This document shows, in pieces, positions 797-48,402 of a stretch of DNA of 64,000 nucleotides. Both the position numbers and the translations under genes were made by a program. The notes beneath the pieces were generated by a model that saw only the letters and a list, made by a program, of their open reading frames with translations, had not been told where the DNA came from and ran no database searches. Numbering within the stretch: the first letter of the stretch is position 1; the number at the start of each line of letters is the position of its first letter. Location: positions 4,051,001 to 4,115,000 of the forward strand of contig NZ_JAVDYB010000001.1 in NCBI RefSeq assembly GCF_031458235.1, in the 5' to 3' direction. The stretch is from Catenuloplanes atrovinosus (GTDB taxonomy: Bacteria > Actinomycetota > Actinomycetes > Mycobacteriales > Micromonosporaceae).

Positions 797-2064
797 CGGG
801 GCACGGCCGCCTTCTGCGCCTCGTCACGGATCTCCTGCGCGGCCCGCTCCGGCGTCTGCGCGTCGGTCAGCACCTTGCCGAGCGCGGTGACGGCCGCGCG
901 CGCGGTGGCGTTGAACCCGGGGCTGTACGCGGCGGCGTAGGTGTCCGCGGGCGTGCGCTGGATCTCCTGGAGGAAGACGTTCATGTCCTCCGCCCGGGAC
1001 GGGTACTGGATACCGGAGTCGATCAGGTCCTTGCGGGTGGGCAGGAACGCGGCCTCCTGGCACAGCCGCCGCTGCGACTCGGCCGAGGTCATGAACGCGA
1101 TGAACTCCGCGGCCAGCGCCTGGTGCGCGCTCTGCCGGAACGACGCGAGGAACTTGCCGCCGGGGAAGCCGCCGCAGCGTTCGCCGCACGGGTTCGGCGC
1201 GGCCTGCCAGGCGAACGCCGCGGACTTCGCGAACGCGCTGACCTGCCAGTTGCCGCTGATGTAGACCGGGACCTGCTGGGCCAGGAAGATCTCGTTGGCC
1301 GCCTTGTACTTGGTGCCGGCCGACAGCCACAGGTCCGCCGGCATCGCGCCGGTCTCGTGCAGCCGGGCGAACTCGGTGATCGCGGCCGTGGCCTTGGCGG
1401 CGTCCAGCGTGACCGTCTCGCCGTTGAGGTACGTGGTGCCGTACTGGCTGAGCATGGTGGCGAACCGGTGCCCGGAGACGTCCATGGCGAGCGCGTACTC
1501 CGTGCCGTTGGCGCGCTGCACGGCCTGCGCCGCCTCGATCAGCTGGGGCCAGGTCCACGGCGCCGCCGGGTCGGGCAGCGGTACGCCGGCCGCGCGGAAC
1601 TGGTCGACGTTGATGATCGGCGCGTTCATGGTGAGGTCGCTGGGCACCGCGATCAGCTCGCCGTTCGGCCCGGTCGTCGCGGGCGTGGCGCCGTCGATGA
1701 ACCGGCCGGACAGCGCGTCCCGCTGGTGCGCGCCGAGGTCGAGCAGGTCGGCGCGGAACGGCGCCAGGTCGGTCAGCCGGGCCACGTCCGGCGCGTTGCC
1801 GCCGGAGAGCCGGGCCTGCAGCTGCTGCTCGAGATTCGCGTACGGCACGACCTGGAGGTTGACGGTGGCGCCACTGCGCCGCTCGAACTCCGCGATCAGC
1901 GCGCGGGTGACCGCCTCGTCCGGGCCGTCGGTGAAGTAGACGTACGTGAGGTTCCGGTCGGCGGCCTGGTCGGCCTCCCCCTCGCCGGAGCCGCCGGGTG
2001 CGCAGGCGGCCAGCGCCAGGACGGTGAGCAGGGACATCAGTCTGGTTCGAGCCGAGCGCGACAT
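793..2064 (-). CDS. Extracellular sugar-binding lipoprotein of ABC importer
   Basis: Solute-binding protein (family 1, about 423 aa) that captures a sugar outside the membrane and hands it to the permease encoded next. It has a type II signal peptide with lipobox LAAC, Cys21 being the lipidated residue, after a short basic start (MSRSARTRLM). The mature part shows the usual family pattern, with an N-terminal strand ending in YFTDGPDEA and a long mixed alpha/beta body. It is the first gene of the visible operon and its stop overlaps the permease start. The 185-bp divergent gap to the GH114-like gene holds a perfect palindrome at 2140-2159 that could control both. The sugar is unknown; the neighbouring GH114 gene suggests an oligosaccharide, but that is inference. 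Confidence 0.9.
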   Translation of the reverse strand: MSRSARTRLMSLLTVLALAACAPGGSGEGEADQAADRNLTYVYFTDGPDEAVTRALIAEFERRSGATVNLQVVPYANLEQQLQARLSGGNAPDVARLTDLAPFRADLLDLGAHQRDALSGRFIDGATPATTGPNGELIAVPSDLTMNAPIINVDQFRAAGVPLPDPAAPWTWPQLIEAAQAVQRANGTEYALAMDVSGHRFATMLSQYGTTYLNGETVTLDAAKATAAITEFARLHETGAMPADLWLSAGTKYKAANEIFLAQQVPVYISGNWQVSAFAKSAAFAWQAAPNPCGERCGGFPGGKFLASFRQSAHQALAAEFIAFMTSAESQRRLCQEAAFLPTRKDLIDSGIQYPSRAEDMNVFLQEIQRTPADTYAAAYSPGFNATARAAVTALGKVLTDAQTPERAAQEIRDEAQKAAVPR

Positions 2065-2139
2065 GCGTCACCGCCTGGTCGTCAGCGGGTTGGGAGCCCG
2101 CTGGGACCGTATCCATCGACGAGAGGACATGTCAACGCC

Positions 2140-2159
2140 CGGTAATCCCATGATTACCG
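2140..2159. promoter_or_regulatory. Perfect palindrome in divergent promoter, candidate operator
   Basis: CGGTAATC and GATTACCG form a perfect 8-bp inverted repeat around CCAT. It lies between the divergent sugar-binding lipoprotein gene and the GH114-like gene, about 75 bp from the first start and 90 bp from the second. It is followed by A residues on the + strand and has no T tract on either strand in the right place, so an operator fits better than a terminator. Confidence 0.45.
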
Positions 2160-2248
2160 AAAAAATTCTCAAATCGGTGGCAGCAGCGGGCGCGGGCCGG
2201 CGCGTTCAGGGGGTGGAGTTGTACAACGAGGCTCGAGGAGTGGCATCG

Positions 2249-3265
2249 ATGGCGTCCAAGCGCAGGCGGATCACAGTCGGGGTGGCGGTGACGGCGACCG
2301 TGGCCGTGCTCCTCGGCGTCGGCATCGGCACGGCGAACGCCGGGACCCGCAAGCCCTGGTGGGAGCGGTGGAACCCGAAGCCCCGGCCGGTCGCGAGCGC
2401 GTCCGCCACCCCGTCCCCGAGCGTCACCACGGCCGCGCCCACCGCGTCACCGCGCCCGTCGGCGCCGGCGTCGGCCGCGCCGTCCCCCTCCCGGCCCGCC
2501 ACGGCGCCGTCGCCGACGCCGTCGAAGACCACCTCGGCGGGCACCTGGGCGCCGCCGCCGGCGAACGCGGGCTTCGACTACCAGATCGGCGGGGCGTACG
2601 CGCCGCCGTCCGGCGTGACCGTGGTCAGCCGGGACAGCGAGGTCAGCCCGGCCGCCGGGATCTACAACATCTGCTACATCAACGCGTTCCAGGCCCAGCC
2701 CGGCGCCGAGTCGTGGTGGAAGAGCAACCACCCGGACCTGCTGCTCCGCGACAAGAACGGCGAACTGGTCGTGGACGAGGACTGGGATGAGCTGATGCTC
2801 GACTTCTCCACGCCGGCCAAGCGCACCGCGCTGACCACGATCGTCGGCGGCTGGATCGACCGGTGCGCGGCCAAGGGCTTCAAGGCGATCGAGCCGGACA
2901 ACCTGGATTCGTACACCCGCTCCAACGGGCTGCTGACCCAGGCGCAGGCGGTGGAGTACGCGGCGTCGCTCTCCGCCTACGCGCACGGCAAGGGCCTGGC
3001 CGTCGGCCAGAAGAACCTCGCGGAGCTGTCCACGGCCGCGGCGAAGAAGGCCGGATTCGACTTCGCGGTCGCGGAGGAGTGCGCGGTCTGGAACGAGTGC
3101 GGCGCGTACACCGCCACGTACGGTAACAACGTCATCGTGATCGAATACACTCAGAGCGGCTTCACGAAGGCGTGCACCGGGTTCGGTGGCAAGCTGTCGG
3201 TCGTGCTGCGCGACGTCGACGTGACCGCCCCCGGATCGCGTACGTACGTGTTCAAGGGCTGCTGA
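2249..3265 (+). CDS. Secreted GH114-like endo-alpha-1,4-polygalactosaminidase family protein
   Basis: Probable extracellular glycoside hydrolase, 338 aa. Residues 1-31 form a signal peptide (basic MASKRRR, hydrophobic stretch, ANAG cleavage region). Residues 45-105 are a Pro/Ser/Thr/Ala linker of the secreted-enzyme type. Residues 108-338 are a GH114-type TIM-barrel domain, with the strand CYINAF at 142-147, the acidic motif AIEPDNLDSY at 213-222, AVAEECAVWNEC at 273-284 and VIEYTQ at 297-302. Asp and Glu residues in these motifs are the likely catalytic ones. The start was set at 2249 because GAGGAG lies 8 bases upstream and the signal peptide begins there; the same frame is open further upstream. 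GH114 members cleave galactosaminogalactan-type polymers; the exact substrate here is inferred. Confidence 0.8.
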   Translation: MASKRRRITVGVAVTATVAVLLGVGIGTANAGTRKPWWERWNPKPRPVASASATPSPSVTTAAPTASPRPSAPASAAPSPSRPATAPSPTPSKTTSAGTWAPPPANAGFDYQIGGAYAPPSGVTVVSRDSEVSPAAGIYNICYINAFQAQPGAESWWKSNHPDLLLRDKNGELVVDEDWDELMLDFSTPAKRTALTTIVGGWIDRCAAKGFKAIEPDNLDSYTRSNGLLTQAQAVEYAASLSAYAHGKGLAVGQKNLAELSTAAAKKAGFDFAVAEECAVWNECGAYTATYGNNVIVIEYTQSGFTKACTGFGGKLSVVLRDVDVTAPGSRTYVFKGC

Positions 3266-3293
3266 GCCGCTGTCCCGATTCCGCTACGCCCCC

Positions 3294-3329
3294 GAGATCT
3301 CCGGTGCCCCGCGCGGGCCCGGAGATCTC
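3294..3329 (+). terminator. Hairpin after GH114-like gene
   Basis: GAGATCTCCGG (3294-3304) pairs perfectly with CCGGAGATCTC (3319-3329); GCCC/GGGC inside extends the stem with one bulged base. It lies 29 bases past the stop. There is no U tract, as is common in actinobacterial terminators. Confidence 0.6.
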
Positions 3330-3353
3330 CGGCGTCCAGGCGAACAGGCCACG

Positions 3354-3887
3354 ATGACCACCAACGAGCCGACCACGGCAGTCACCGGCCGTGCGGAGGA
3401 CTTCGACGACTTCGTGCACGGCCGCGGCCGGGCGCTGCTGCGGTTCGCCTACGTGCTGTCCGGCGACGCGCACCTCGCGGAGGACCTGGTGCAGGAGGTG
3501 CTCGCCCGGATGCACCGGCGCTGGCACAAGGTCACCGCGATGGACAGCCCGGAGGCGTACGTCCGGACCTCGATCGTCCGCCAGTTCATCTCCTGGCGCC
3601 GGCGGCGATCGTCCCGCGAGGCGGTCCTCGCCGAGCTGCCGGAACCGGCCGGCCCGGACGAGCCGCAGCAGCGCGTGCTGGCCCGCGACCAGATGTGGTC
3701 GCTGCTGGCCGGCCTGCCACGCGCGCAGCGCGCCGTGCTGGTGCTGCGCTTCTACTGCGACCTGCCGGACGACGAGATCGCCGCGCTGCTCGGCTGCGCG
3801 CAGTCCACGGTCCGGTCCCACGCGGCCCGCGCGCTCGCCCGGATGCGGACCATGTTGACCGAGAAAGGGGTGGGCGGCGATGGATGA
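3354..3887 (+). CDS. SigE-family (ECF) RNA polymerase sigma factor
   Basis: Extracytoplasmic-function sigma factor, 177 aa, of the actinobacterial SigE-family (SigE here names the protein family, not an orthologue). Region 2 covers about residues 17-85: FDDFVHGRGRALLRFAYVL, then the DLVQEVLARM helix and the -10-recognition helix around SPEAYVRTSI. Region 4 covers about 118-170 with LPRAQRAVLVLRFY and the helix-turn-helix DEIAALLGCAQSTVRSH. The gene ends 8 bases inside the next gene, which encodes a single-pass membrane protein, so the pair looks like a sigma factor with a membrane-bound partner. No target promoters can be assigned from the window. Confidence 0.9.
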   Translation: MTTNEPTTAVTGRAEDFDDFVHGRGRALLRFAYVLSGDAHLAEDLVQEVLARMHRRWHKVTAMDSPEAYVRTSIVRQFISWRRRRSSREAVLAELPEPAGPDEPQQRVLARDQMWSLLAGLPRAQRAVLVLRFYCDLPDDEIAALLGCAQSTVRSHAARALARMRTMLTEKGVGGDG

Positions 3888-4950
3888 GCTGGATCGGTTG
3901 CTCGCGGAGACGATGCACACCGCGGCCGGCCGCGCACCCTCCGACGACGGCCTGCTGCACACGGTGCACGAGCGGTCCCGCCGCTACCACCGGCGGCGCG
4001 TGATCACGAGCCTGTCCGCGGTCGCGGCCGTGGTGGCCGTCGGTGTCCCGTTCGTGTCCGTGCTGGCCACCCGCCCGAACTCGGAGCTGCCGCCGGCCGC
4101 CACCGCGCCGGCCGTACCGCCGTCCCGCACGGCGTCGGCCACGCCGTCGCCGTCACCGTCACCGTCGGTGCCGTCGAGCGCGCCGCCGTCGTCCCCCGCG
4201 TCACCGGCGCGCAGCGCGGACGCGCCCGGGGCCACCGCCGTGACGCTGGCCGAGGGCTGGACCGCGCCCGCGTTCCCGTACACGCTGGGTGACAACGACA
4301 ACCGGAACGCACCGGTCGCGTCGATGGACGGCGGCGACCTGATCGCGTTCTTCGAGACCACCGACCCGGAGCGGGACGCGGACATCACGGTCACGGTCTC
4401 CGCCGCGCGGCCGTCGTTCGGCACGGCCGGCTCCGAGGCCGCCACCCGGGTACGCGGCCGCGACGGCACGCTGCGGACCGTGGACGTGCAGCCGGCCCGG
4501 CAGCTCACGCTCTACTGGCAGGAGTCGCCGAGCCGGTGGATCACGCTGGCCACCGACGACACGTACACGCCGGAGGAGGTGGTCGCCTGGGCCGACGGCC
4601 TGGCCGACGCCGCGATCGCGGTGCGGGCGCCGTTCCAGCTCGGCCTCTCCCCCACCGGCCTGACCACCGAGACGGTCACCCGCTCCCGGATGGTCTTCGC
4701 CTCCCCCGGCACCGGCGGCATCAGCCTGGTGCTGCGCCAGCGCCGCACGCTCACCGGCGTGAACCAGAAGGTCAACGGCGACGACGCCGCCCTCACCCGG
4801 GACACCGCCGGCACCCGGCTCGCGATCGACGTCCGCGACTGGGACGCCACCCTGGAGATCACGGTCGGCGAGGGCCTCACCCTCACCGACGCCGATCTGC
4901 TGCGCCTCGCCACCAGCGTGCGCATCCTCACCTACTCCGACCCGGAGTAG
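3880..4950 (+). CDS. Single-pass membrane protein coupled to the sigma factor
   Basis: 356 aa, no confident family. Residues 1-38 are cytoplasmic (MDELDRLLAETMHTAAGR), residues 41-62 form one membrane helix (SLSAVAAVVAVGVPFVSVL), residues 68-110 are a Pro/Ser/Ala linker, and the rest is an extracellular beta-rich domain with ALTLYWQ-like strands. The start lies within the sigma gene (8-base overlap), implying coupled translation. By position and topology it may restrain or signal to the sigma factor, but the short N-terminus lacks a zinc-binding ZAS motif (no HxxxCxxC), so calling it an anti-sigma factor is only an inference. A hairpin follows the stop. Confidence 0.75.
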   Translation: MDELDRLLAETMHTAAGRAPSDDGLLHTVHERSRRYHRRRVITSLSAVAAVVAVGVPFVSVLATRPNSELPPAATAPAVPPSRTASATPSPSPSPSVPSSAPPSSPASPARSADAPGATAVTLAEGWTAPAFPYTLGDNDNRNAPVASMDGGDLIAFFETTDPERDADITVTVSAARPSFGTAGSEAATRVRGRDGTLRTVDVQPARQLTLYWQESPSRWITLATDDTYTPEEVVAWADGLADAAIAVRAPFQLGLSPTGLTTETVTRSRMVFASPGTGGISLVLRQRRTLTGVNQKVNGDDAALTRDTAGTRLAIDVRDWDATLEITVGEGLTLTDADLLRLATSVRILTYSDPE

Positions 4951-4955
4951 CACCG

Positions 4956-4993
4956 TCCCGCCCGCCCGCCGACTCAGCGGCTGGCGGGCGGGA
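4956..4993. terminator. Convergent hairpin between membrane protein and SARP-like gene
   Basis: TCCCGCCCGCC (4956-4966) pairs with GGCGGGCGGGA (4983-4993). The right arm overlaps the 3' end of the minus-strand gene, so it can serve both directions. Confidence 0.5.
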
Positions 4994-6851
4994 ACCGGCC
5001 GTAGTCCTCAACGATGGTGGCGCTCAGGGTCATCAGGTCCGGGTCCTCCCGCTGGAGGTCCGGGTCCTTGAAGCTGAACGCGAACAGGCCGCTCGAGACG
5101 AGGTCGCCGAGGATCGCGGGGGCGAAGGTGCGGTGCAGGTCGTCGAGGTAGACGTCGACGGGGTCCTCGTGCGGGCCGTAGTGGGCGACCATGACCGGGC
5201 CGTACCGGCCCAGCTCGTGGACCATCTGCACGATGTGCGTGGCGTTGCCCTCCGGGACGAACGCGCCGAAACTCTGGAAGTCGGACGCGCGCATCGGCTC
5301 CGCGAAGTACTGGAACATCGAGCGGCCGGCGCCCTCGGCCGGCTCGTCGTGCGAGGCGTTCCAGCCGTCCCAGTTCAGGCCGATCCGCAGGTTCGGTGCC
5401 GCCGCGCGCATGACGGCCATGACCTCGAAGTAGCGCTCCTTGAGCGCCAGGTAGTACGCCGTGGTCGCGGGGTCGTCGAGGTATCCGTTGTTCGCGCAGG
5501 CGAGCTTCTGCAGACCGCTGAACATCGACACGTAGAGCGGCGGGCCGTCCGCCGGGCCGGCGAACGCGGCGGCGAGCCGGCGCATGTCGGTCAGGAACTC
5601 CGATGACAGCGGGTACGGCTGGCCGCAGGCGCGACCGTACCGCGTCTCCAGCGACGTGCCCTTCTCCCAGGTGCCCACGACCACGTGCATGGCGCGGCCG
5701 GACGCGTAGGTCCGCGGGACCACGTCCGCGCGCCAGCCCTCGAACCGCTCCAGGTCCGTCTGCTTGTGGTACCACGTGGTGACCATGCCGATCCCGGCGC
5801 TCATCAGCGGTGACGCCTCCGCCCGCACCGGGTCGGGCCCGAGCCCGAACAGCAGCTTCGGCGCGGCCGGCAGGCCGCCCGCCTGGCCGCCGGCCGCCCG
5901 GAACAGCTGCTGTCCCGCCACGCTCGACCCGCCGGCCAGCACCAGCACGCCGGCCACGACCAGCGCGAGCAGCCCGGCCGGCACGCGCCGGCGCCGCAGG
6001 CCCCGGCCCGGCGGCGCCGGGCCGTCCGCGATCACCTCGACGACCGGCCCGGGTGGCGCGGGCGGGGACACCGGCGGGACGGTCTGCTCGGCCGTCTCCG
6101 ACAGCAGCGCCCGGTAGACCTCGCGCAGCCGGCTGCCCGGCTCCGCGCCGAACGTCTCCAGCAGCAGCACGCGCGCCCGCTCGTAGCTGGCCAGCGCGTC
6201 CACCTGCCAGCCGGCCGCGCGCTGGGCCAGCACCAGCCGCTCCCAGGCCGGCTCGCGCAGCCGGTCCTCGGTGAGCATCGCGCGGGCCAGCGCGATCGCC
6301 TCGCCCGGCTCGCCGGACGCGACCAGCGCGTCGGCCAGCGTGTACCGCGCGGTCCAGCGCAGCTCGTCGAGGTGCCGGGCGGCCACCGGGTCGAGCGCGT
6401 CCTCCTCCGGCGTGCCGCGCCACAGCGCCAGCGCCCGCTGCTGCGCGCGGACCGCCTCGGCCGGGTCGCCCCGGCCCAGCGCGTCCGCTCCGGCCTCCAC
6501 CAGGGCCTCGAACACGTCCGCGTCCAGCTCGCCGTGGGCGACCGTGAGCCGGTACGCCCCGCCACGGCCGGCCAGGCGCGCGGCTCCGTCCGAACCCGCC
6601 GGAAGGATCTTGCGCAGCTGGTGGACGTAGGTCTTGATGCTGCCGCTGATCGAGCTGGGGTAGTCGGTGCGCTCCCACAGCGCGGCCGCCAGCGTGTCGT
6701 TGTCCACCCAGCGGTTGCGGTGGCGCAGCAGCGCGGCGAGCAGCGTGCGGCGCCGGCCCGGCGGCAGCGGTGCGACGGTGCCGTCCGCGCCCGCCACGGC
6801 CAGCGGGCCCAGCACGGCGAACAGCGGCTCCTCCATTGGACGCACACGCAC
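4974..6851 (-). CDS. Transmembrane SARP/BTAD regulator fused to an extracellular glycosidase-like domain
   Basis: 625 aa with an unusual order of parts. Residues 8-105 are an OmpR-type winged helix as in SARPs (FAVLGPLAV, RTLLAALL, TLAAALW, SIKTYVHQLRKIL). Residues 108-250 are a bacterial transcriptional activation domain (ELDADVFEAL, ALALWRG, ASYERARVLLLETFG). A Pro-rich linker (255-283) and an RRRR stop-transfer stretch precede one membrane helix at about 291-310. Residues 330-625 look like a TIM-barrel sugar hydrolase (GIGMVTTWYHK, GLNWDGWN at 491-498, FSFKDPDLQ near the end). This resembles CadC-style one-component sensors, with a carbohydrate-binding or degraded enzyme domain outside. 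The gene is divergent from a secreted GH16 gene, its likely target. The start is GTG 6851 or ATG 6836; neither has an ideal Shine-Dalgarno sequence. Confidence 0.8.
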   Translation of the reverse strand: MRVRPMEEPLFAVLGPLAVAGADGTVAPLPPGRRRTLLAALLRHRNRWVDNDTLAAALWERTDYPSSISGSIKTYVHQLRKILPAGSDGAARLAGRGGAYRLTVAHGELDADVFEALVEAGADALGRGDPAEAVRAQQRALALWRGTPEEDALDPVAARHLDELRWTARYTLADALVASGEPGEAIALARAMLTEDRLREPAWERLVLAQRAAGWQVDALASYERARVLLLETFGAEPGSRLREVYRALLSETAEQTVPPVSPPAPPGPVVEVIADGPAPPGRGLRRRRVPAGLLALVVAGVLVLAGGSSVAGQQLFRAAGGQAGGLPAAPKLLFGLGPDPVRAEASPLMSAGIGMVTTWYHKQTDLERFEGWRADVVPRTYASGRAMHVVVGTWEKGTSLETRYGRACGQPYPLSSEFLTDMRRLAAAFAGPADGPPLYVSMFSGLQKLACANNGYLDDPATTAYYLALKERYFEVMAVMRAAAPNLRIGLNWDGWNASHDEPAEGAGRSMFQYFAEPMRASDFQSFGAFVPEGNATHIVQMVHELGRYGPVMVAHYGPHEDPVDVYLDDLHRTFAPAILGDLVSSGLFAFSFKDPDLQREDPDLMTLSATIVEDYGRFPPASR

Positions 6852-6923
6852 TCCCCAGGACGCGGAAATCGATGCCGACGCCTCAGCCTAGGGCAAGTGG
6901 CGCCCGCCACGTCACCCCGATGT

Positions 6924-6970
6924 AACCGCTCTGACCTGCGGTTTCACCATTTGCTCACCGCACTCTGACC
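6924..6970. promoter_or_regulatory. Inverted and direct repeats in the SARP/GH16 divergent promoter
   Basis: AACCGC (6924-6929) and GCGGTT (6938-6943) form an inverted repeat, and CTCTGACC occurs at 6929-6936 and again at 6963-6970. SARP proteins bind direct repeats next to promoters, so this is the best candidate site for the adjacent regulator. The assignment is inference. Confidence 0.35.
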
Positions 6971-7018
6971 GCGCGCGGGGCACTGTGGACGCATCCGCCA
7001 GTCCCTGATCGCGGGTCA

Positions 7019-7085: not shown

Positions 7086-8408
7086 ATGCGAATACAGCTG
7101 GCGGCCGCGGTCGCCGGGCTCGTGGTGATCACCGGAACCGGGATCACCGTGGCACACGCGGCGGCACCGGCCGCCGACGCCGGGCGCACCGGCTCGCGGG
7201 TGAACACCTGCGCCAACCCGGTCGTCGACCGGGACGTCACCGGCTGGGGCCGGCACGGCACCGGCGCGACCGGCGCCCGGGTCGCGGTCGGCGCGCACGT
7301 CGCGGCCGGGTACGCCTACCGGCAGCCGGCCGCGAACGGCGCGAACCCGGAGATGTACCTGCCGCAGAAGGACGTGGTCGCGGGCGAGCGCTGGTCGTTC
7401 GCGATGGACACCTGGGTCAGCGGCCCGGCCACCTCGGTGACCGCGCGGATGCAGGTCGACTGGTACAGCGCGGCGAGCATCTACCTCGGGCACACCAACG
7501 GCGGCGAGGTCGCGGTCACGCCGAACGCGGCCGAGACGTGGACGCGGGTCGCGGCCGAGTTCACCGCGCCGGCCGGCGCCACCCGGGCGAACGTGACCGC
7601 GCGGCTGGCCGCGCCGGCCGGCATGACCTGGTCCGCGACCGCCTGCGACTACCAGCCGGTCTCGCGGGCCACCCCGTCCCCCACGCCGACGACGCCGGCG
7701 CCGGGCGGGGACACGGCGGCGGGACGGCACAACTGGGGCACGCCGCTGCCCGCGTCCGACGAGTTCAACTACGGCAGCACGGCGGCGCCGGCCAAGCCGG
7801 ACGCGACCAAGTGGAAGCTGGCCGGCAGCGAGGCCACCGGCTGCTGGGCGGGGCACGACGGCAACGGCCGCCGATGCGAGGAGAACAGCCGGGTGCTCGG
7901 CGGGATACTGCGGATGACCGGCGACGCGGACGGCGACACCGGCCTGCTGGGCAGCCTGTACGACCAGCGGTACGGCCGGTGGGAGGTGCGCGCCCGCTCG
8001 CAGGCGACGTCGCCGGACAACGGCCGCCAGTACCACCCGGTGCTGCTGCTCTGGCCGCGCAGCGAGCAGTGGCCGCAGGGCGCGGAGTACGACTACCTGG
8101 AGAACAGCGCGCCGGGCGAGCAGTGCGCGGGCGCGTTCATGCACTACCCGAACCACCAGCCCAAGGAGCAGGAGCACGCGACCAGGTGCGACGTGGACCT
8201 GTCGCAGTGGCACAACTTCGGCTTCGAGTGGACGCCGCAGCACGTCAAGGGCTTCATCGACGGCGAGCAGTGGTTCGTGTTCGACCGGGACTGCATCCAG
8301 TGCGCGCCCGGCCCGATGTTCCAGACCATTCAGCTCGACAACTTCCACGGCGGTAACCTGCAGACCGCGGTGTTCGAGGTGGACTGGGCACGGGTCTACT
8401 CGCTCTGA
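7086..8408 (+). CDS. Secreted family 16 glycoside hydrolase (beta-glucanase/agarase fold)
   Basis: 440 aa extracellular enzyme. Residues 1-26 are a signal peptide ending in AHA. Residues 35-195 form a beta-rich domain like a carbohydrate-binding module (NPVVDRDVTGW, then VTARMQVDWYSA). A Thr/Pro linker at about 197-212 leads to the GH16 catalytic domain (215-440). The catalytic signature ExDxxE is intact: Glu334, Asp336, Glu339 in EYDYLE. GH16 enzymes cut beta-1,3/1,4-glucans or galactans by a retaining mechanism; the exact polymer cannot be read here. It is divergent from the transmembrane SARP-glycosidase protein, which suggests substrate-sensed induction. Its last 13 bases overlap the convergent LuxR gene. 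The start is supported by GAGGAGG 5-6 bases upstream. Confidence 0.9.
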   Translation: MRIQLAAAVAGLVVITGTGITVAHAAAPAADAGRTGSRVNTCANPVVDRDVTGWGRHGTGATGARVAVGAHVAAGYAYRQPAANGANPEMYLPQKDVVAGERWSFAMDTWVSGPATSVTARMQVDWYSAASIYLGHTNGGEVAVTPNAAETWTRVAAEFTAPAGATRANVTARLAAPAGMTWSATACDYQPVSRATPSPTPTTPAPGGDTAAGRHNWGTPLPASDEFNYGSTAAPAKPDATKWKLAGSEATGCWAGHDGNGRRCEENSRVLGGILRMTGDADGDTGLLGSLYDQRYGRWEVRARSQATSPDNGRQYHPVLLLWPRSEQWPQGAEYDYLENSAPGEQCAGAFMHYPNHQPKEQEHATRCDVDLSQWHNFGFEWTPQHVKGFIDGEQWFVFDRDCIQCAPGPMFQTIQLDNFHGGNLQTAVFEVDWARVYSL

Positions 8409-8971
8409 CCGGTCTCGTCCGCGGGGCCTCGCCGGTCGACGGCGAGGCCCTCCGGCGTGTAGAGCCCGTCCGCCACGGCCCGGACCAGCAGGTCCGCCTT
8501 TGTCGGCAGGTGGTGGCCCAGGTCCGCGTACTTCTGCCGGATGCGCTTGATGTACATCTCCACGGTGTGCGGCGAGATGCCCATCCGGCGCGCCACCGAC
8601 GCCTTGGTCAGCGACCCGAGCCACCAGCACAGCGCCGCGTGTTCGCGCGCGGACAGGTGCGGGACGGTTCTGGCGGCCGTGCCCCGCCCGTGTGGCACGG
8701 CCTCCAGCACCTCGGCGATCAGCTCCCGGCGATCACTGTCCACCGTGAACACGACCACCGGGCGGTCGTGCAGGCCGAGCACGCACGCGCCGGAGTCGCA
8801 CACCAGCACGTCCGGGTCGTCGGCCGCCTCGACCACCACCAGCCGCGGATCCTGCCGCAGCCACGACCGCACCCCTTCCGCCACGACCGGCCGCATCCCG
8901 GCCACGCTCACGCGGATCGTCTCCACATCCATGACCATCAAGCGTGGGTACGCGGGTGAGCGGCCGGTCAT
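8396..8971 (-). CDS. LuxR-type regulator with degenerate receiver
   Basis: 191 aa at most. The C-terminal half (about 105-180) is a LuxR/NarL helix-turn-helix (LSAREHAALCWWL, KASVARRMGISPHTVEMYIKRI). The N-terminal half resembles a response-regulator receiver (VSVAGMRPVVAEGVRSWL) but lacks the acidic pocket, the phospho-acceptor in a typical DhxMP context and the conserved Lys, so phosphorylation control looks lost. The DNA-binding half is clearly related to that of the response regulator at 47761-48402 (shared LS-REH, VARR, KYA, PTKA pattern). The start may be ATG 8938 or 8932 instead; no site has a good Shine-Dalgarno sequence. It overlaps the GH16 3' end by 13 bases. Confidence 0.75.
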   Translation of the reverse strand: MTGRSPAYPRLMVMDVETIRVSVAGMRPVVAEGVRSWLRQDPRLVVVEAADDPDVLVCDSGACVLGLHDRPVVVFTVDSDRRELIAEVLEAVPHGRGTAARTVPHLSAREHAALCWWLGSLTKASVARRMGISPHTVEMYIKRIRQKYADLGHHLPTKADLLVRAVADGLYTPEGLAVDRRGPADETGQSE

Positions 8972-8989
8972 GATCGGGTGATCCCGCGG

Positions 8990-9358
8990 TCAGCAGGACA
9001 CGCAGGCGAACCTGAACGTGGTCGCCCGGAATCCGATGTTGGCCGCGCTGTTCCTGGTCACCGGCTTGGCCCGGCCGGTGCAGCCGGCCGACTCGAAGAA
9101 GTAGCCCTCGATGGTGCTGTTGTTGCGGTACGACTGGTACGGGCCGAAGTTGAAGCCGCGGCAGCTGCCGAGTGCGCCCGCCGGCAGGCTGTACACCCCG
9201 CCGGACTCCCCGGCGCCCTGGTACATGCAGAACGTGTTCGCGGGACAGGGGGCCGCCGCGCTCGCGAGAGCCGGGGCCGGTGCGACCAGGGCGGCCGACG
9301 CGACGGCCGCCCCCAATACCGCTGTGACGGCCATCCGCCGTCGATTCGTGGTTGTCAT
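8990..9358 (-). CDS. Secreted peptidase inhibitor family I36-like protein
   Basis: 122 aa. The signal peptide is at about 1-33 (MTTTNRRRMAVTAVLG to ALASAAA). The mature part of about 88 residues has the I36/beta-gamma-crystallin-like pattern: CPANTFCMYQGAG, GGVYSLPAG, SCRGFNFGPYQSYRNNST, then a C-terminal FACVSC. Four or more cysteines could form disulfides outside the cell. Members related to SMI of Streptomyces inhibit metalloproteases, but many family members are untested, so inhibition is inference. The gene stands alone between the LuxR gene and GH65, both in the same direction. Confidence 0.75.
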   Translation of the reverse strand: MTTTNRRRMAVTAVLGAAVASAALVAPAPALASAAAPCPANTFCMYQGAGESGGVYSLPAGALGSCRGFNFGPYQSYRNNSTIEGYFFESAGCTGRAKPVTRNSAANIGFRATTFRFACVSC

Positions 9359-45517: not shown

Positions 45518-47764
45518 ATGGCCCCCGTGCCGGGCGCGGTGGAGAAGAGACTTCTCGATCAGGGACTGCGATACGCGCTCGGGCTGCGCATCGTCGTGAC
45601 AGGACTGTCCAGTTCGGTCGCTCTCGCGCTCGCGGCGATGCCCGACCGGGCGGTGGCGGCCGTCGTGATCACCGCGTTCAACGCGTGGAGTCTGCTCTAC
45701 GCCGTCGTCATGGTGCGCGGGTCCGGGCGCGCCCGTCAATGGCTGCCGCTCGTGGACGTCGCGGCCGTGTGCGCGATCTGCCTGAGCATGACCTGGACCG
45801 TCACGCCGGACCCGCGCGGCGGCGCCACCTGGGTGCTCATCGCGCTGAACATGGCCGTCGTCACCTACCCGTGGCAGGTCGGCGGGCGGGCGCTGGCCGC
45901 GGCCACGCTGACCATCATCGGGTTCTACTACCTGGGCGCGACGCTGGCGGACCCGGGCGGCTGGCTCGCCGACCGGACGCTCGGGCCGTGGACCGCGGCG
46001 GAGGCGGCGCTGTCCTGGGGGCTGTACCGGTTCGTGCGGCGCGGCGCCCGCGCCTCCGACCGGCTGATCGCGCGCGGCGCGCAGTTGCGCCGGGCGGCGG
46101 AGATCGCGGCCGCGCGCCGGGCCGGCGAGCGAGAATACCTGGCGGCGCTGCACGACACCGCGGCCGCGACGCTGCTGATGGTCGGCGGCGGCGTCGCCGG
46201 CCGCGCCGAGCCGTGGCTGTCCGAGCAGGCCCGGCGCGACCTGCGCGAGCTCGGCCGGTCCGGCGACGCGGCGGACGGCGAGACCGATCTGGTCCCGATG
46301 CTGCGCGAGGCGGCCCGGCACACGCCGCTGCGCATCACCTGGCGTACCCCCGAGAGCCTGTTCCTGCCGGCCGCGGACGCGGTGTCGGTCAGCCGGGGCG
46401 TCCGGGAGGCGCTCGCCAACGTGACCCGGCACGCCGGCACCGACCGTGCCGAGATCCGGGTCCGCCAGGACGACGCGCGGGTGACGGTGGAGGTGGCCGA
46501 CGCCGGCCGCGGGTTCGACCCGTCCCGGATCGCCGACGACCGGTACGGCGTGACCCGCTCGCTGGTGGAGCGCATGATCCGCATCGGCGGCCGGGCCCGG
46601 ATCGACAGCGCGCCCGGCACCGGCACCACCGTCACGCTGACCTGCCCGCGCGCGCTGCCGGACGTCACCGGCGACCGCGAGGTGATCAGCGCGTCGTTCC
46701 AGCGCGGCCTGCGCTGGGCGGTGATCAGTATCAGCCTGGCGATCCTGCTGCTGCTCGACCTGCCCCGGCTGCTGGCCAGCGGCGCCGCGTACACCGCGCT
46801 CTGGCCGCAGGTGGCCACCTGGTGCGGCCTGGTCGCGGTGACGCTGACCGTGGCGGTCGCCACCTGGCGGGACCGCCCGCTCGGCCGGTGGCGGTGGCCG
46901 CTGGTCGCGCTGGTCCTCGCGCTGTCCGTGCTGGCGACCGCCGCCGTCCGCCCGGAGTACCTGCTGGGCGCCGCGCACTGGTCCGAGGGCGACGCCGGCT
47001 GGCCGGTCGTGCTGCTGCTGATGGAGGGCCGGATCGCCGTCCTGGTCGCGGTGCTGGCCGGCCAGTACCTGATCACATTCGGCCAGGCCGCCATCGCCGG
47101 GGAGGCCGCGCTCAGCGTGGCCGGCGCGATCAGCGCCACCTGGGCGGTGCTCTCCTACCAGCTCGCCACCGCGATGATCGCGGCCGTGCTGCGCGGCCTG
47201 GCCGCCACGTCCGCGCGCGAGCTGCACGCGGCCGAGCGGCTGCGCACCGCGGAGGAGGTGGCCCGGCACCTGCACGCGGACCGGACCGGGCGGATCGCGG
47301 CGCTGGCGGCCACGGCCGTGCCGCTGCTGGAGGGTCTGGCGTCCGGCGCGCTCGATCCGGGCGACGAGTCCGTCCGGCGCGCGTGCGCGGCCGAGGCCGC
47401 CCGGATGCGGCGGCTCATCGCGGACGACGCCACCCACGCGGACGCACTCGCCCACGAACTGCGCGCCTGCATCGAGCAGGCCGAGCGGGACGGGGTCACG
47501 GTCACGTTCGCGGAGCAGGGCGCCCGCCCGGAGCTGCCGCCGCGGGTGCGCCGCCGGCTGGTGGAGCCGGCCATCGCCGCGCTCGCCACCGCGCGCGGCC
47601 GGGCCCGGCTCACGGTCAGCGGCACCCGGGAGACCGTGACGGTCAGCGTCGTCGCCGCCTGCGAGCCTCCGCCGCCGGCACCGGACGGCGACGGGGTCCG
47701 GCGGTCCGTGCTGGCGGACGGCGACCGCCTCTGGATCCAAGCAGCCTGGCAGGGAGAAGCATGA
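45518..47764 (+). CDS. Double-module membrane histidine kinase
   Basis: 748 aa with two successive sensor-kinase modules. Module 1: membrane helices (about 20-165), H-box with His212 (LAALHDTAAATLL), HATPase with GVREALANVTRHAG and YGVTRSLVERM. Module 2: five or six further helices (about 410-560), an H-box-like HLHADRTGRIAALA with candidate His584/His586, then an HATPase-like remnant (AHELRACIEQAERDGVTVTF, RRLVEPAIAALATARG) without clear G-boxes. The second module is probably degenerate. Start ATG 45518 fits the first helix; the frame is open to 45410. It is ATGA-coupled to its response regulator. Confidence 0.85.
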   Translation: MAPVPGAVEKRLLDQGLRYALGLRIVVTGLSSSVALALAAMPDRAVAAVVITAFNAWSLLYAVVMVRGSGRARQWLPLVDVAAVCAICLSMTWTVTPDPRGGATWVLIALNMAVVTYPWQVGGRALAAATLTIIGFYYLGATLADPGGWLADRTLGPWTAAEAALSWGLYRFVRRGARASDRLIARGAQLRRAAEIAAARRAGEREYLAALHDTAAATLLMVGGGVAGRAEPWLSEQARRDLRELGRSGDAADGETDLVPMLREAARHTPLRITWRTPESLFLPAADAVSVSRGVREALANVTRHAGTDRAEIRVRQDDARVTVEVADAGRGFDPSRIADDRYGVTRSLVERMIRIGGRARIDSAPGTGTTVTLTCPRALPDVTGDREVISASFQRGLRWAVISISLAILLLLDLPRLLASGAAYTALWPQVATWCGLVAVTLTVAVATWRDRPLGRWRWPLVALVLALSVLATAAVRPEYLLGAAHWSEGDAGWPVVLLLMEGRIAVLVAVLAGQYLITFGQAAIAGEAALSVAGAISATWAVLSYQLATAMIAAVLRGLAATSARELHAAERLRTAEEVARHLHADRTGRIAALAATAVPLLEGLASGALDPGDESVRRACAAEAARMRRLIADDATHADALAHELRACIEQAERDGVTVTFAEQGARPELPPRVRRRLVEPAIAALATARGRARLTVSGTRETVTVSVVAACEPPPPAPDGDGVRRSVLADGDRLWIQAAWQGEA

Positions 47765-48402
47765 TCACTGCGGTCGTGGTGGACGATCATCCGGTCGTCA
47801 TCGCCGGCGTACGGTCCTGGTGCGCGCTCGCCGGTCCGCCGATCGACGTGGTGGCCGCCGGTCCCACGGTCGCGGTCGCCTGGACGGAGCCGGGCGACCG
47901 GGCCGACGTGGTGGTCCTCGATCTGCAGCTCGACGCCACCGGCCCCGCGTACGGCGATCTCAAGCGGCTGGTGGACGCGGGCCGCCAGGTCGTGGTCTAC
48001 AGCATGCGCGCCGACCGGGAGACCGCGCTGACCGCGCTCGACATCGGCGCGTTCACCTACCTGACCAAGGCGGAGGGCGAGGAGCACCTGGTCGCGGCGA
48101 TCACGGCGGCGGCGGCGAACGCGCCGTACACGCCGCCGACGCTGTCCGGCGCGTTCGGCACGGACGAGCGCCCGCACCGGCCGCGGCTGTCGCCGCGCGA
48201 GCATCAGATCCTGATCGAGTGGTTCCACTCCGAGTCCAAGGAGATGGTCGCCCGCCGCCTGGACGTCACGGTCCACCGGGTCAACTCCTGCCTGGAGCGG
48301 GTACGCGTGAAGTACGCCAACGTGGGCCGGGAGGCGCCGACGAAGGCCGCCCTGGTCGCCCGCGCGCTCCAGGACGGCCTGATCACCACGGACGAGCTGT
48401 GA
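47761..48402 (+). CDS. LuxR-type response regulator of the double-module kinase
   Basis: 213 aa. The receiver has VVVDDHPVV at 5-13, the phospho-acceptor Asp in VVVLDLQLD (about 60), Ser/Thr in YSMRAD and Lys in FTYLTKAEGE. The helix-turn-helix is at about 140-205 (LSPREHQILIEWFHSESKEMVARRLDVTVHRVNSCLERVRVKYANVG). It is related in its DNA-binding half to the degenerate regulator at 8396-8971. The start overlaps the kinase stop (ATGA). Confidence 0.92.
   Translation: MITAVVVDDHPVVIAGVRSWCALAGPPIDVVAAGPTVAVAWTEPGDRADVVVLDLQLDATGPAYGDLKRLVDAGRQVVVYSMRADRETALTALDIGAFTYLTKAEGEEHLVAAITAAAANAPYTPPTLSGAFGTDERPHRPRLSPREHQILIEWFHSESKEMVARRLDVTVHRVNSCLERVRVKYANVGREAPTKAALVARALQDGLITTDEL

Follow-up and report, generated by a model that had tools for sequence, protein, structure and literature searches.

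Work on SARPs has centred on soluble activators of antibiotic clusters, and regulators of the ToxR/CadC type hold a winged helix inside the cell and a sensor outside it. The closest precedent for the protein described here is RsgI6 of Clostridium thermocellum, a membrane regulator with an exported glycosidase-type domain; this GH10 domain has very low activity and still binds carbohydrate, and the sigma factor of RsgI6 governs glycosidase genes (PMC4711584). Transmembrane transcription regulators are single-pass in about 56% of cases (PMC10269533). Among the large SARPs, AfsR combines a winged helix with a BTAD and is associated with repeats 11 bp apart and a -10 element about 8 bp downstream (PMC10936776). 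We analyzed a 64,000-nucleotide stretch of the Catenuloplanes atrovinosus genome (contig NZ_JAVDYB010000001.1, positions 4,051,001 to 4,115,000; hereafter the window), in which a single open reading frame (ORF) joins a SARP through a membrane segment to a predicted TIM barrel. We propose, with a probability of about 0.6, that its product is a transmembrane one-component SARP that detects carbohydrate and activates the genes of a secreted GH16 protein and of a LuxR-type regulator.

The protein differs from each of the described systems in a different way. RsgI6 has no DNA-binding SARP and acts with an anti-sigma domain via a sigma factor, and its sensor belongs to a known family, GH10, whereas the barrel belongs to no Pfam family. 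With the ToxR/CadC type it shares a DNA-binding domain and a membrane region in one protein, but it has a BTAD after the winged helix and a TIM barrel as its sensor. AfsR, which resembles it in winged helix and BTAD, carries NOD and TPR domains where this protein has the membrane segment and barrel. The best solved relative of the SARP half is EmbR of Mycobacterium (2fez, E 2.4e-27), which, unlike this protein, continues with an FHA domain (PMC10936776). Hanks-type Ser/Thr kinases of the PknB type are comparable in that relatives of this barrel sit on such kinases; the external domain of PknB is of the PASTA type (PMC4632501), whereas here it is a TIM barrel, and the window protein has no kinase. 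The main text of a survey of transmembrane transcription regulators does not contain the terms BTAD, SARP, glycos- or hydrolase (PMC10269533), and among the matches listed from the open-licence literature, titles and abstract openings do not describe a SARP-membrane-barrel architecture. The architecture probably adds to the transmembrane one-component regulators a form with a SARP head and a glycosidase-like sensor.

The winged helix, the BTAD, the membrane segment and a 294-residue C-terminal domain share one frame of 625 open codons. Pfam and phmmer showed that the N-terminal half has the SARP class feature, an OmpR-type winged helix and then a BTAD, and residues 11-251 were aligned by phmmer with EmbR (E 2.4e-27) and AfsR (E 1e-14). 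NCBIfam models matched the SARP half alone, with scores under their cut-offs, and TPR matches overlapping the Pfam domains of this half were likewise under cut-off. The membrane segment has a mean Kyte-Doolittle value of 2.34, with five Lys/Arg among the 15 preceding residues and one among the 15 that follow, and all 11 SARP fusions that we found carry a single such segment between BTAD and barrel (mean hydropathy 1.89-2.97). By hydropathy, then, a DNA-binding domain and a membrane helix occur in one protein, as in the ToxR/CadC type. These segments were called from a hydropathy plot rather than by a trained predictor, and because simple hydropathy also flagged the winged-helix region in several BTAD proteins, it is weak evidence by itself. 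Cys409 and Cys452 are invariant across all 40 aligned barrel sequences, which would fit a disulphide outside the membrane; together with the charge bias before the segment, the two cysteines are consistent with an external C-terminal domain. The initial annotation of this DNA had described the same one-frame layout with a membrane helix at residues 291-310. Pfam, phmmer, hydropathy and AlphaFold bear out this layout, and the segment lies close by, at 294-312.

The same annotation had said that a missing membrane helix, or a fusion due to a frame error or confined to this strain, would undo it, and had suggested a genome search for further SARP-membrane-glycosidase proteins. The segment was present by hydropathy, and the search returned the SARP-barrel fusion in 11 genomes of three families (six Micromonosporaceae, one Streptosporangiaceae and four of the Pseudonocardiaceae set), on which ground we rejected the idea of an artefact, be it a frame error or a peculiarity of one strain. 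From BTAD to membrane segment, the linker varies in length among these fusions. In one locus (L030:7264-9501, +; loci and genomes carry our L and G numbers) it is enlarged by tandem Gly/Pro/Ser-rich units (GSDSGGAGVPGAVPA-like) that are absent from the other SARP fusions inspected. The ORF starts of L020, L146 and L030 were set mechanically and are probably too far upstream. We also rejected the idea that a membrane SARP is unique, since the C. atrovinosus genome holds another candidate, a probable membrane BTAD protein near 6.342 Mb (L071:1830-3434, +) with winged helix, BTAD and three hydrophobic segments (326-398). This protein also has a helix-hairpin-helix match (PF12836) at 461-508, barely above cut-off.

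The barrel domain is rare and patchy. A search with the barrel in the same family matched 9 of 354 genomes: C. atrovinosus itself, three more of its genus, two genomes of another genus with the SARP fusion (one of them Actinoplanes xinjiangensis, locus L019), two with separate forms, and a last one whose match is partial, over 55 residues. A pattern-based scan of genome contigs gave 11 loci, eight with the SARP half only and three with SARP-barrel fusions, from Nonomuraea guangzhouensis, A. xinjiangensis and Saccharopolyspora dendranthemae. Matches to the barrel were found in 1 of 341 genomes of the N. guangzhouensis family and in 15 of 390 of the S. dendranthemae family. The class sample gave 19 of 394 (the own genome and one weak match counted) and the phylum sample 2 of 396 (the own genome counted), the one further place there encoding a separate-form protein. 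In the S. dendranthemae family, the 17 places besides its own comprised three SARP fusions and 14 Ser/Thr kinases, in all of which the barrel lies behind a single membrane segment. Pfam assigned Pkinase to all five of the kinases submitted to it (E 5.1e-37 or better); the others were judged from sequence, including L157, which retains only the end of the kinase domain and was counted as a kinase row. These relatives thus have the make-up of Hanks-type kinase receptors, Pkinase, membrane helix and a sensor whose export is predicted. All seven separate forms inspected begin with an N-terminal hydrophobic segment. No barrel relative that might point to a mobile-element origin was found in plasmid, viral-contig and phage collections at the sensitivities used.

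In a tree of 40 barrel sequences, the SARP (11), kinase (14) and separate (15) forms each occupied one side of a branch, with SH-aLRT values of 97, 100 and 99, as if each architecture had arisen once. The tree is a quick, unrooted one with SH-aLRT support only, and L147 was flagged as a long branch. The Nonomuraea SARP fusion grouped among those of Micromonosporaceae, which suggests transfer. Family f20 of the class sample, possibly Frankia-like, contributed thirteen of the separate forms in the tree. Six of the 19 separate-form places in the class sample were left out of the tree (L038, L044, L045, L046, L049 and L052), and the weak partial matches L017 and L054 and the fragment L144 were not used. 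L045, in the draft genome G643, is a separate-form barrel gene broken by an in-frame TAA, possibly through decay or a sequencing error.

We then considered what the barrel resembles. AlphaFold with 40 sequences modelled residues 332-625 with a pLDDT of 93.1 and a pTM of 0.92, in the strand and helix order of a TIM barrel, and no Pfam or NCBIfam family matched this domain. Most of the 50 solved structures listed by Foldseek were TIM-barrel glycosidases, such as AlXyn26A (TM 0.60), GH53 enzymes and galactanases. The first match, 6zpl_C, comes from the structure of a glycine transporter, in which this chain is probably a fused lichenase. Membership in GH26, suggested by Foldseek, was dropped, because hhalign gave a probability of 0.2 against 12 GH26 sequences and PF02156 did not match. 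An hmmsearch match to designed TIM barrels was left unused because it consisted of repeated short matches. These results suggest that the barrel is, as modelled, a glycosidase-like fold of an unclassified family.

Enzymes of clan GH-A are (beta/alpha)8 barrels with a Glu acid/base after strand beta4 and a Glu nucleophile at beta7. The prediction gives the window protein the (beta/alpha)8 barrel and, at these two places, Gly446 and His557 instead of the catalytic Glu pair; the beta4 and beta7 positions were taken from the strand order of the model. Residue 446 is Gly in 11/11 SARP fusions, whereas it is Glu in 13 of the 14 kinases (Asp in L156) and in all 15 separate forms. Five of the six separate forms left out of the tree also read TE at this site, the stop-broken L045 being uncounted, as does L176, a separate form found later. 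Where beta7 ends, the 40 rows have His, Tyr, Asn, Ala or Ser as residue 557, and none has an acidic one. Because Gly446 is constant in the SARP forms and the beta7 site is never acidic, the SARP-form barrel is a predicted pseudoenzyme by the usual GH-A rule; the kinase and separate forms may or may not be active. In the SARP lineage the beta4 Glu may have been lost rather than gained elsewhere; the tree, being unrooted, fits either course. It is improbable, in our estimation, that the SARP-form barrel is still an enzyme working by an unrecognised mechanism, with the SARP end reporting turnover or kept for another reason. His389 and Asp524, invariant in 40/40 rows, and the near-invariant Asp502 could build another active site, and most relatives outside the SARP branch keep the beta4 Glu, but the uniform Gly in the SARP fusions and the beta7 residues speak against this.

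The receptor reading draws on a recurrent neighbour. A GH16 of related sequence adjoins 9/11 SARP fusions; it is divergent from the SARP gene in six loci (the window, L029, L030, L031, L019 and L032) and lies downstream on the same strand in three (L020, L146 and L147). A glycosidase gene is therefore not always divergent, a point that the initial annotation had wanted checked. The motif ExDxxE is kept in 14/14 GH16 partners. In the C. atrovinosus genome, only one other place resembles the window GH16 (33% over 294-439), which makes a chance neighbourhood unlikely. The N-terminal region of the window GH16 is weakly like a carbohydrate-binding module (CBM_4_9 under cut-off, E 0.096). GH16 also occurs near 5 of the 14 barrel kinases, directly convergent in L151, L152, L154 and L159 and about 1.5 kb away with one gene between in L156. 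The GH16 proteins of the first four also matched a PL7-type query drawn from L151, and in L156 the PL7-like sequence is in a neighbouring gene; Pfam identified the PL7-type domain as PF08787 in L151 and L159. The PL7-type alginate lyase domain precedes GH16 in the same protein (L151:8865-10838, -; L159:6091-7971, +; L152:6535-8418, +; L154:8967-10850, -), and in L151 and L159 Pfam also placed an F5/8 type C domain before GH16. These partners hint that an acidic polysaccharide may be involved in the kinase branch. They also bear on whether what is sensed is a glycan of the cell itself, wall or exopolysaccharide, which GH16 remodels, rather than an external nutrient. This seems possible, at less than even odds: the lyase domains in or near the kinase-form GH16 proteins could act on an acidic self-made polymer, and cell-wall sensing occurs among bacterial Ser/Thr kinases, but none of the eight window proteins around the SARP gene scanned with Pfam is one for glycan synthesis.

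A set of direct repeats may link the SARP to its neighbours. Between the SARP and GH16 genes of the window stand TTCACC, CTCACC and CTGACC at a spacing of exactly 11 bp. A perfect TSACC triple precedes GH16 in 6/6 divergent loci, including two of the genus Actinoplanes in which the letters between the cores differ. A LuxR-type gene was found in seven loci and has an upstream array in six of them, exact in the window, L029, L030, L019 and L018 and with one mismatch in L031. In first-order Markov sequences modelled on the 200-bp pieces around these sites, an exact array arose in at most 1 of 3000. Eight genomes held 18 exact triples, 12 at the SARP locus and 6 elsewhere, and the reversed-pattern control gave 4. 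The C. atrovinosus genome has five exact-triple hits in four places, three of them (two places) at the SARP locus. G095 and G097 have only two hits each, at the GH16 and LuxR-gene promoters, and in G098 and G032 the sole hit precedes GH16; at-locus hits were 2 of 4 in G073 and 1 of 3 in the N. guangzhouensis genome. The draft genome of a genus member that has no barrel (G096) contained no array and no GH16 relative. In the S. dendranthemae branch, other 11-bp-spaced units, of a GGTNCA type, lie upstream of the SARP gene and are conserved in L020, L145, L146 and L147, with a spacing slip in L146. These data suggest that the LuxR-type gene as well as GH16 is a likely target of the SARP.

Three further observations concern these repeats and the LuxR-type gene. 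One of two off-locus arrays in the C. atrovinosus genome (G000:C1:6308819-6308845; L065 4820-4846, minus strand) sits close to where a minus-strand ORF is listed to begin, perhaps upstream of its true start, and may be chance or a further target. In the intergenic region of L032, at about 7150-7250, imperfect tandem GGTGGGCTACGGC copies separate the array from the start of the SARP gene. A 905-aa protein at 45685-48402 (+) of the window has a C-terminal part 32-37% similar to the LuxR-type gene of the locus.

The promoter layout resembles in part that of described SARP targets, where direct repeats stand at intervals of 11 or 22 bp and the final one is 8 bp away from the -10 element (PMC10936776). 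The -10 of afsS is CACTGT (PMC10936776), the hexamer present in the window GH16 promoter (Table 1), and CACAGT occupies the matching place in the GH16 promoters of three relatives, after 8, 8 and 9 bp. A CASNNT hexamer is thus found 8-9 bp past the repeats in four GH16 promoters, and before the LuxR-type gene a CASNNT-like hexamer, picked by eye, follows the array after 6-7 bp. Because the start codon is so close to this hexamer, the LuxR-type message is likely leaderless in most loci. Within the genus, a second conserved stretch nearer GH16, TCCCTAGCGTGACC, could be a different promoter. In AfsR, the conserved DNA contacts are Q48, W74, P79, T88, R94 and K95, and R92 contacts a base (PMC10936776). 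Five of the six are kept here, as W59, P65, T74, R80 and K81 (AfsR W74, P79, T88, R94 and K95).

Table 1. Features of the membrane SARP locus, in window coordinates.
Feature	Position	Strand	Basis or remark
Membrane SARP, 625 aa	4974..6851	-	GTG start; possible alternative ATG start, residue 6
OmpR-type winged helix, residues 34-88	6588..6752	-	Trans_reg_C PF00486, E 1.6e-6
BTAD, residues 109-250	6102..6527	-	PF03704, E 3.7e-26
Single predicted membrane segment, residues 294-312	5916..5972	-	Hydropathy; positive charges on N-terminal side
TIM-barrel domain, residues 332-625, presumed extracytoplasmic sensor	4974..5858, stop codon counted	-	AlphaFold, Foldseek
Gly446, directly after strand beta4	5514..5516	-	Glu in non-SARP relatives, with a single Asp
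Three perfect 11-bp direct repeats, TSACC core, SARP-GH16 intergenic	6943..6970	+	Weaker units at 6911, 6922, 6931
CACTGT, candidate -10	6981..6986	+	8 bp after last 8-bp repeat unit; letters identical to afsS -10
Secreted GH16	7086..8408	+	PF00722, E 5.9e-6; EYDYLE at residue 334; signal peptide judged by eye
LuxR-type regulator	8396..8932	-	GerE, E 1.6e-7; likely ATG start 8932 not 8971, from relatives
Four 11-bp direct repeats directly upstream of LuxR-type gene	8955..8993	-	Pattern scan

A number of observations weigh against the proposal that a carbohydrate-detecting membrane SARP activates GH16 and the LuxR-type gene. The barrel also matches non-glycosidase TIM barrels (pyruvate kinase, methionine synthase), its Foldseek TM-scores are only about 0.6, and the profile comparison with GH26 shows no sequence relationship, so that glycosidase ancestry rests on the fold. 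The 11 Gly446 fall in one branch and are not 11 independent events; they may be one event. No GH16 was found within the fetched stretch at the SARP fusions L018 and L145 (2/11), at 9 of the 14 kinase loci or at any of the 15 separate-form loci (BLAST E 1e-4, 1e-6). Kinase relatives retain the beta4 Glu, yet some adjoin GH16, which means that absence of the Glu is not needed for the association. The GH16 arrays were first spotted by eye, leaving the LuxR-gene arrays and the genome-wide counts as the independent test, and L032 lacks a complete array before its LuxR-type gene. Of the 18 exact arrays, 6 are off-locus (two each in G000, G073 and G745), about chance level given the 4 hits of the reversed control. 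TSACC arrays are absent from the S. dendranthemae genome, and no CASNNT hexamer occurs at the expected place after the GH16 array in L019 and L032. Finally, Q48 of AfsR corresponds to Arg33 and the base-contacting R92 to Gln78, so that the AfsR site cannot be carried over.

The two altered contacts, and the resemblance of the units to PHO boxes (GTTCACC), would suit a different assignment, in which the 11-bp arrays belong to a PhoP-like OmpR-type regulator or to the LuxR-type protein and the targets of the SARP lie elsewhere. We regard this as quite unlikely. Four exact-triple places in the C. atrovinosus genome, two of them at the locus, seem too few for a PhoP regulon; the genus member that has no barrel has no array; and L018 keeps SARP, LuxR-type gene and array, yet no GH16 was found nearby. 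Moreover, the literature gives direct repeats at 11- or 22-bp spacing as the hallmark of SARPs (PMC10936776).

Taken together, these results leave the initial annotation partly standing. A secreted GH16 (PF00722) is indeed divergent from the SARP gene, with three repeats at exact 11-bp spacing between them, and the link to GH16 is stronger than that annotation could have recognised, given the conserved operator-like repeats and the GH16 near 5 of the 14 kinase loci. The statement that the sensor looks like an enzyme holds for the fold, as AlphaFold and Foldseek returned a glycosidase-like TIM barrel, and fails for the catalytic residues: the comparison with glycosidase families that had been suggested gave neither a GH26 profile match nor a catalytic Glu pair. 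Its overall interpretation is supported in the membrane layout, the barrel placed outside and the GH16 link, and the likeness to an enzyme has to be narrowed to the fold.

In the mechanism that we propose, the winged helix and BTAD would be cytoplasmic, one helix would span the membrane, and the exported TIM barrel would serve as the carbohydrate receptor. The barrel would bind a glycan or a fragment of one, perhaps released by the neighbouring GH16, and binding would alter the spacing, clustering or orientation of the SARP heads at the membrane. The heads could then fill neighbouring 11-bp direct repeats side by side, as AfsR does, and RNA polymerase would be recruited at the GH16 and LuxR-gene promoters, the control being activation. 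GH16 would be secreted, and the LuxR-type regulator would be raised and feed a second tier. CadC/ToxR-type regulators act from the membrane, which argues for such a course over the main mechanical rival, an RsgI-like release in which a protease frees the SARP head. Release is unlikely in our view, though the variable-length linkers before the membrane segment could accommodate it, and RseP cleaves RsgI of C. thermocellum within the membrane helix (PMC12203970).

Upstream of this locus, at 1946-4950 of the window, lie a GH114 gene, an ECF sigma factor gene and a probable membrane anti-sigma gene. Relatives of the three adjoin the SARP gene in L029, L030 and L031; the other loci compared yielded none. 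We excluded the sigma/anti-sigma pair and GH114 from the core of the system, because they are conserved in the genus loci only among those compared.

Beyond this locus, we give even odds to a wider proposal, that this barrel represents a new, portable module of Actinomycetota for the extracytoplasmic reception of carbohydrates, with SARP and Ser/Thr kinase outputs, coupled to GH16, and turned into a strict pseudoenzyme in the SARP lineage around a single fusion. If this is true, the GH16 coupled to the barrel would either produce the ligand or use it up. What stimulates bacterial Ser/Thr kinases is described as an outstanding question (PMC6069109), and an unclassified receptor common to kinase and regulator branches, with an enzyme gene beside members of both, offers a testable guess at the ligand. 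GH16 and the LuxR-type gene, both preceded by conserved operator-like arrays, form a candidate regulon of small size. A glycosidase-like receptor on a membrane SARP would enable this family to sense extracellular polymers directly and, if the proposal is true, would connect a polysaccharide outside the cell straight to a promoter through proteins whose best-known role is that of soluble activators of antibiotic production.

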